Shown here piece after piece: positions 59,747 through 61,588 of a stretch of 64,000 bases of DNA (position 1 is its first letter; the number at the start of each line of letters is the position of its first letter). The translations under genes and the position numbers were made by a program. The stretch spans positions 1 through 64,000 of the forward strand of contig PBNP01000002.1 of NCBI GenBank assembly GCA_002723295.1, written 5' to 3'. The stretch comes from Flavobacteriaceae bacterium (GTDB taxonomy: Bacteria; Bacteroidota; Bacteroidia; Flavobacteriales; Flavobacteriaceae). Below the pieces are notes generated by a model. The model was not told the origin of the DNA. It searched no databases and saw only the letters and a program-made list of their open reading frames with translations.

Positions 59747-60538
59747 TTAAAGAATTTTTTTTGGAATCTTACATATTGGTATGGGCAACATCTTGTGTTG
59801 ATTTTTATTGTTTAATTTTAAATAAATCATTCTTGTAGCAGCCTGTTTTTTTGTAAGGTTTTCGATTGGCACATTATTAGAAATAAGATTCATAGCCTCT
59901 TCAATAGAAGAGTATTTTGCTCCAATTTATTCTTCATCTGTTCGGTTGTCATCCCATAAACCATCTGCAGGAATAGCCTTTTGAATAGAACTAATAATTT
60001 TTAAATGTGAAGCGAGTGAATAAACATCAGATTTCAAGAGGTCAGCAATAGGACATAAGTCTACTGCACCATCACCATGCTTTGTATAAAATCCAATTCC
60101 AAAGTCTTCAACTTTATTACCTGTTCCAACAACAAGAGATTTATAATAGCCTGCAAAATAATACAAGGTAATCATTCTTAATCTAGCCCTTGTGTTGGCT
60201 AAACTTAATAAATCAAGGTTATGTTTATTTTGTTTAATTAATTCACCTTTAAATGATTCAAAAACATTAGTTAATGAATGAGAAATGATTTTAACATTTT
60301 TATAATTCTTTTTTAACCATTTTAAATGCTCCTTAGCTCTAGAAATTTGATTTTTATTTTGATGAATGGACATTTCTATTGCATAAACTGGAAATTCAGT
60401 AAGAGCACATAGTGTAGATGTAACAGCAGAATCAACTCCCCCTGAAACCCCAATAATAAAACCATTTTGATTAGCTTCACTTATATACTTTTTTAACCAT
60501 TCAATTATATGCTCTTTAACTTTTTCTGGGTATTTCAT
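59747..60538 (-). pseudogene. nadE: NAD+ synthetase interrupted by in-frame TAA at 59927-59929 (open part 59927..60538)
   Basis: FIIGVSGGVDSAV, ANTRARLRMITLYY, VVGTGNKVEDFGIGFYTKHGDGAVDLCPIADL, PADGLWDDNRTDEE*IGAKYSSIEEAMNLI...NQHKMLPIPICKIPKKIL*. The frame continues for about 59 codons after the stop. Confidence 0.85.
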
Positions 60539-60564: not shown

Positions 60565-61588
60565 TTGTGTAAAGTTAGAAATTTGAAAACTAAATTCAAT
60601 TTGCAAAAGAATCGTTTTATCTCTTTTTTATTTTTATGCAAGGTTTTGTTGTTTATAAATGGATGTAAACAACATAATTCAGATGAACAAAAAATTAGTT
60701 CTATGAAATTAAAAGTTAAAATTGAGAGATTTGAAAAGAAATTTAAACTTATTGACACTTTAAATATTAATAAATTAAAAGGAAACTATTCTTTTTTTTT
60801 TCCCAGGTAATTATTCAGATAGCTTTTGGATAAAAAAGAAAGATGATAGTGCATATAAATTACTAGAAGATTCTGTTTCAAAAGAATTTGCAGATATCAA
60901 ACCTATTGAAAATGAATTAACTCATTTCTTTAAGCACTTGAAAAATCAATTCCCGTCAATTATAATGCCTCGTGTGATTTCTCTAATTAACAATGTGGAT
61001 TATCAAAATAATGTAATTTTAGCAGACTCTTTGTTGTTAATTTCGCTTGATTGTTTTATGGGGGCAGACCATCATTTATATAAAGGCATTCCCCTATATG
61101 TAAAAAAAAATATGAATAAGCATAATTTAACTTCTAAAGTTGTTGAAGAATATGCAAAGTATATTATTGATTTTCCAAAGGATAGGAGTTTTTTATCAAA
61201 AATGGTTTATCACGGAAAATTACTTTATATAAAGGATATACTCATGCCTCATCATGAGGACTCTTTAAAAATTGGATATACAAGAGATCAAAATAAATGG
61301 GTGAATGAAAACGAAGTTTTTATTTGGCAATATATGATTGAAAAGCAAATATTATTTAGTACAAAAACAACATTAGATTACAGATTTCTTATGCCAGCTC
61401 CCTTTTCTAAATTTTACTTAGAAATAGACAATGATTCTCCTGGAAGGATTGGTCAATGGATTGGTTGGCAAATAGTAAAATCTTATAAGGATGAATTTCC
61501 AGATTCAAAATTACAAGAAATTCTTTCTATGCCTAGTCAAGATCTTTTTAATAAATCAAAATATAAACCTAGAAGAATATGGAAATAA
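60565..61588 (+). pseudogene. gldB: Gliding motility lipoprotein GldB, split by a frameshift in a T10 run (60792-60801)
   Basis: ORF 60565..60810 (lipobox-like LFINGC ... NYSFFFPR*) and ORF in frame 2 (60938..61588, plus upstream GNYSDSFWIKKKDDSAY...). Deleting one T joins SFFFPGNYSDSFWIKK. Located between nadE and gldC. Confidence 0.85.

Follow-up and report, generated by a model that had tools for sequence, protein, structure and literature searches.

A lone in-frame ochre codon in nadE of a draft Flavobacteriaceae genome, most likely a draft-sequence flaw or a dead-end mutant copy

The NH3-dependent NAD(+) synthetase NadE (PF02540, TIGR00552; solved relative 3fiu) is the described enzyme closest to the gene product analyzed here, which resembles it in sequence, length, nucleotide-binding motif and conserved tail, and differs from it by a single in-frame TAA at codon 204 of the present gene. 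In-frame stops in genes that keep a low dN/dS provide a second point of comparison. Such stops have been reported to be widespread in bacteria, sequencing errors having been filtered out by accepting only stops shared by at least two species (PMC7918605). The nadE stop has in common with these cases that it lies within an undecayed frame, but whereas the published stops occur in at least two species, the one in nadE was found in one genome only and fails that filter. The gene was analyzed in a window of 64,000 nucleotides, this being the whole stretch of DNA under study (positions 1 to 64,000 of contig PBNP01000002.1), and the source genome is a draft of 1.27 Mb in 35 contigs with a completeness of 68.8%.

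Translation of the minus strand between positions 59747 and 60538 gave 203 codons from an ATG, a lone TAA, 59 open codons and a natural TAA. The features are as follows.

59930..60538, minus strand: 5′ portion of nadE, 203 codons from ATG (PF02540, 1.9e-41; TIGR00552, 148.6 bits)
59927..59929, minus strand: premature in-frame TAA at nadE codon 204, where homologues all have Gln (CAA or CAG)
59747..59926, minus strand: nadE tail of 59 open codons, IGAKYSSIEEAM...HKMLPIPICKIPKKIL, with the natural TAA at 59747-59749

The 5′ portion contains the SGGVDS nucleotide-binding loop and the GTGNKVED / GDGAVDL region, and it matches the NAD_synthase domain with scores over the curated cut-offs (PF02540, 1.9e-41 and 142 bits, cut-off 21; TIGR00552, 148.6 bits, cut-off 63.65). 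The complete C-terminal part of NadE is not contained in a single open frame and is obtained by reading through codon 204. When the TAA is taken as Gln, the gene comprises 263 codons and the NCBIfam match reaches into the tail, with PRK13980 rising from 154 to 176 bits and TIGR00552 from 149 to 167 bits. A first-pass annotation of this DNA had described a single in-frame ochre stop followed by about 59 open codons, had expected Gln at the stop, and had predicted a normal NadE length on restoring it; all three points are borne out by the translation, the homologues and the extended match.

The site of codon 204 is occupied by Gln in 109 of 109 aligned homologues, the congeners all included (77 CAA and 32 CAG), and a change from CAA to TAA, a single transition, is thus the simplest one. 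That homologous NadE proteins might end naturally at NRTDEE is refuted by the same alignment, and the comparison with sister genomes proposed in the first-pass annotation gave CAA or CAG in all 109 homologues, and TAA only here. The gene is intact in six congeners, and no internal stop was found in the 58 of 60 relatives having nadE. Across the order, no internal stop was confirmed among the matches listed, 191 of 198 genomes having the gene. A recurrent nadE stop was considered for G098, G216 and G218, in each of which one TAA had been flagged, and was rejected when the three genes were found to align without an internal stop. A search of IMG/VR for a copy from the same species, with a query allowing C or T at the stop site, returned no match. 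On the aligned sequences, the TAA is private to this genome as far as the order members listed are concerned.

The tail shows 51-59% identity to three congeners, compared with 51-71% among the congeners themselves, and 14 of its 15 highly conserved columns are kept when codon 204 is counted as Gln. To the three congeners, nadE has a mean identity of 68% ahead of the stop and 56% beyond it, the corresponding values for the congeners being 69-73 and 56-62%. At highly conserved columns, deviations amount to 4/79 before and 1/15 after the stop, compared with 2-3/80 and 1-2/15-16 in the congeners. The divergence of the tail is no greater than in sister species. In an established pseudogene one would expect multiple lesions or a protein diverging faster than its sisters; neither was observed, nadE having one lesion. 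The gene shows no decay, as would be the case after an error or a mutation of very recent origin. Given the AT-weighted composition, a stop would arise from approximately 6.7% of single substitutions in the tail, and ~93% of random ones would leave it open, so that the open tail of 59 codons does no more than limit how old the lesion can be, and is no proof of current selection. The earlier statement that the downstream part is under coding constraint holds for the past of the gene, while for the present it cannot be shown from an open tail.

Based on the gene content of an assembled genome that is 69% complete, NadE appears, and is probably, indispensable in this organism. A search for a second nadE or PnuC, which the first-pass annotation had called for, was run on the assembled 69% of the genome, and no second NAD synthase (PF02540 search) and no member of the PnuC family was found; the NAPRT/NAMPT salvage families were not found in these 69% either. 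The remaining PF02540 matches were rejected as candidates, as they are short, weak stretches in ORFs of 404-560 codons, such as are expected of related ATP-binding enzymes. The nadA, nadC and nadD genes are present, intact and open, and NAD is thus predicted to be made via deamido-NAD, the substrate of NadE. In nearly all relatives (n=60), a single full NAD synthase was found and a close second copy was lacking, one extra weak match being seen in G031. A bypass of the lesion by another NadE or by NAD salvage, as listed earlier, is weakened by these results. A real loss of NadE could be tolerated if the ~31% of the genome missing from the assembly encoded a backup NAD synthase or a way of salvaging NAD, such as uptake of NMN or NAMPT acting with an NMN adenylyltransferase. 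A completeness of 68.8% leaves space for either, but the single synthase of nearly all relatives, the intact de novo genes making the substrate of NadE and the undecayed tail render backup and salvage, taken together, improbable.

TAA is the terminator of 80 of the 103 ORFs on the contig that reach 150 codons, and a suppressor tRNA with a UUA anticodon was not among the 24 tRNAs identified in the assembled 69% of the genome; recoding of the nadE TAA is therefore without support. A change of the genetic code with TAA reassigned was likewise rejected, TAA being the main terminator. Programmed readthrough or recoding would also be expected to conserve the stop, while all homologues have Gln at this site and no relative was confirmed to have an internal stop. 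Readthrough of the TAA, tolerated or programmed, would give a normal protein if Gln were inserted at UAA, and the widespread in-frame stops at low dN/dS offer a precedent (PMC7918605). In an E. coli reporter library, however, TAA was the least leaky stop, with a mean readthrough of 0.01-0.05% of wild type (PMC11126739), and a drop of the NAD(H) pool of ~10-fold is lethal in M. tuberculosis (PMC10470730). Together with the usage of TAA as main terminator, the tRNA result and the lack of a stop in any relative, this weakens the tolerated readthrough suggested earlier, and we regard it as very unlikely that readthrough yields enough full-length NadE. Even less credible is a split NadE, in which the first 203 residues and a tail peptide with its own start form an active enzyme. 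Both parts are open and in-frame ATGs do occur within the tail, but the first of these lies 13 codons beyond the stop, with loss of the conserved QIGA..Y motif, and no split copy was seen in any relative read.

A second lesion was identified in gldB, the divergent neighbour of nadE, which is broken by a +1 in a run of ten T, ~870 bases from the nadE TAA.

60565..60810, plus strand: 5′ portion of gldB in frame 1, with a lipoprotein signal (...LLFINGC...), reading to ...KGNYSFFFPR and a stop at 60808-60810
60792..60801, plus strand: T10 run at which the gldB frame is lost, compared with GldB of G001 and G002
60805..61588, plus strand: 3′ portion of gldB in frame 2, from GNYSDSFWIKKKDDS... to ...YKPRRIWK (TIGR03514 GldB_lipoprot, 3.7e-85)

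TIGR03514 matches the downstream ORF only over profile positions 102-308. Both parts match GldB of the sister genomes, and dropping one T would join them in the register of the sister proteins. Within the 119.8-kb contig, the nadE TAA and the gldB +1 were the only majority-supported lesions, the survey covering this contig (C2) only and counting a lesion just when the majority of sister genomes supported it. Many of the internal stops flagged in the survey were opposite-strand shadow ORFs or differing gene ends and were not counted. By our own arithmetic, the chance of two random points lying this close (~870 bases) is ~1.5%. Homopolymer indels are a classic fault of sequencing and assembly, and real slippage mutations arise at such runs too. 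The gldB +1 probably reflects another fault in a stretch of locally poor sequence that also includes the nadE stop.

Sister drafts served as a control, the nadE block being syntenic with that of the congeners. In G001, murG contains one in-frame TGA (~G001:C9:145567) where six other genomes are open. Two frameshifts were identified in G002, one at A9TG5 (AAAAAAAAATGGGGG, ~G002:C2:102893) in an ftsI-type penicillin-binding protein gene, named from penicillin-binding-protein family matches and its position after mraZ, and one at an A11 run (~G002:C2:87828) in a VimE-like deacetylase gene. No majority-supported lesions were found in G003, G004, G005 and G006 over the stretches read. Both G001 and G002 are metagenome-assembled genomes. 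Cells cannot live without MurG or FtsI, and isolated single-base lesions in indispensable genes are thus best read as noise in these drafts. Breaks comparable to the nadE stop are seen in murG of G001 and ftsI of G002, both of them indispensable genes in assemblies of a similar kind, and the gldB frameshift lies beside nadE in the genome studied here. Like the nadE stop, the murG and ftsI lesions are private to one genome and affect an indispensable single gene that is intact on both sides. They differ in type, the murG lesion being a TGA at a Gly codon and the ftsI lesion a homopolymer frameshift, whereas the nadE stop is a change of the C-to-T type. The first-pass annotation overlooked the gldB break next door as well as the lesions in the sister drafts, which point to sequence quality.

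The best explanation is that nadE of this Flavobacteriaceae species would be an ordinary gene for a full-length NH3-dependent NAD synthetase that the cell needs, and that the single TAA (from CAA) would be a wrong consensus base in a draft metagenome-type assembly, introduced through faulty assembly, low coverage or amplification. We infer that the base is wrong, and consider a consensus error probable, because all 109 homologues have Gln, no other nadE stop was confirmed and no substitute for NadE was found; because the gldB lesion lies ~870 bases off and the sister drafts have lesions in murG and ftsI; and because the tail shows no excess divergence and the genome is a 35-contig assembly of 69% completeness. 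Against an error, assembly faults more typically take the form of homopolymer indels than of substitutions, and as nadE is broken only here among the order members listed, such an error must be infrequent per gene.

The next explanation is a nonsense mutation that is real and very recent, a defective nadE having been present in the cell sampled or in a minority strain whose allele passed into the consensus. One transition would suffice, the tail is undecayed and the frame otherwise intact, and a minority base can become fixed in a population-built consensus. An allele of this kind should, however, be very rare with NadE looking indispensable, and the nearby gldB lesion and the murG and ftsI lesions of the sister drafts favour a technical cause. 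We therefore regard a recent defective allele as possible but rather unlikely, this holding jointly for its variants, namely a dying cell, life on residual NAD, or a rare deleterious polymorphism. The facts behind the list given in the first-pass annotation (error, recent nonsense mutation, readthrough or bypass, in no order) stand, and the list can now be ranked with a consensus error first and a recent defective allele second, a backup enzyme, readthrough and a split NadE being unlikely.

The nadE stop is thus most likely a draft-sequence flaw or a dead-end mutant copy, and not new biology. If the stop were real and fixed, it would be a rare instance in which an essential enzyme is produced solely by ochre readthrough or through a missing NAD pathway. 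That a free-living marine flavobacterium with an ochre stop in its sole NAD synthetase gene should live by unusually efficient UAA readthrough or by an unrecognised NAD route, with the T10 run of gldB rescued by transcriptional slippage, seems to us highly improbable. The case serves mainly as a warning to weigh lone stops and frameshifts in essential genes of drafts against how often such lesions occur in sister drafts, ahead of proposing any biology.

Apart from the stop, the 5′ portion of nadE shows three substitutions within residues 154-162 (60053-60079, minus strand), Y154H, G158A and S162C, at positions that are nearly invariant in flavobacterial NadE. Of these, A158 is also present in the solved relative 3fiu, and may hence be harmless.
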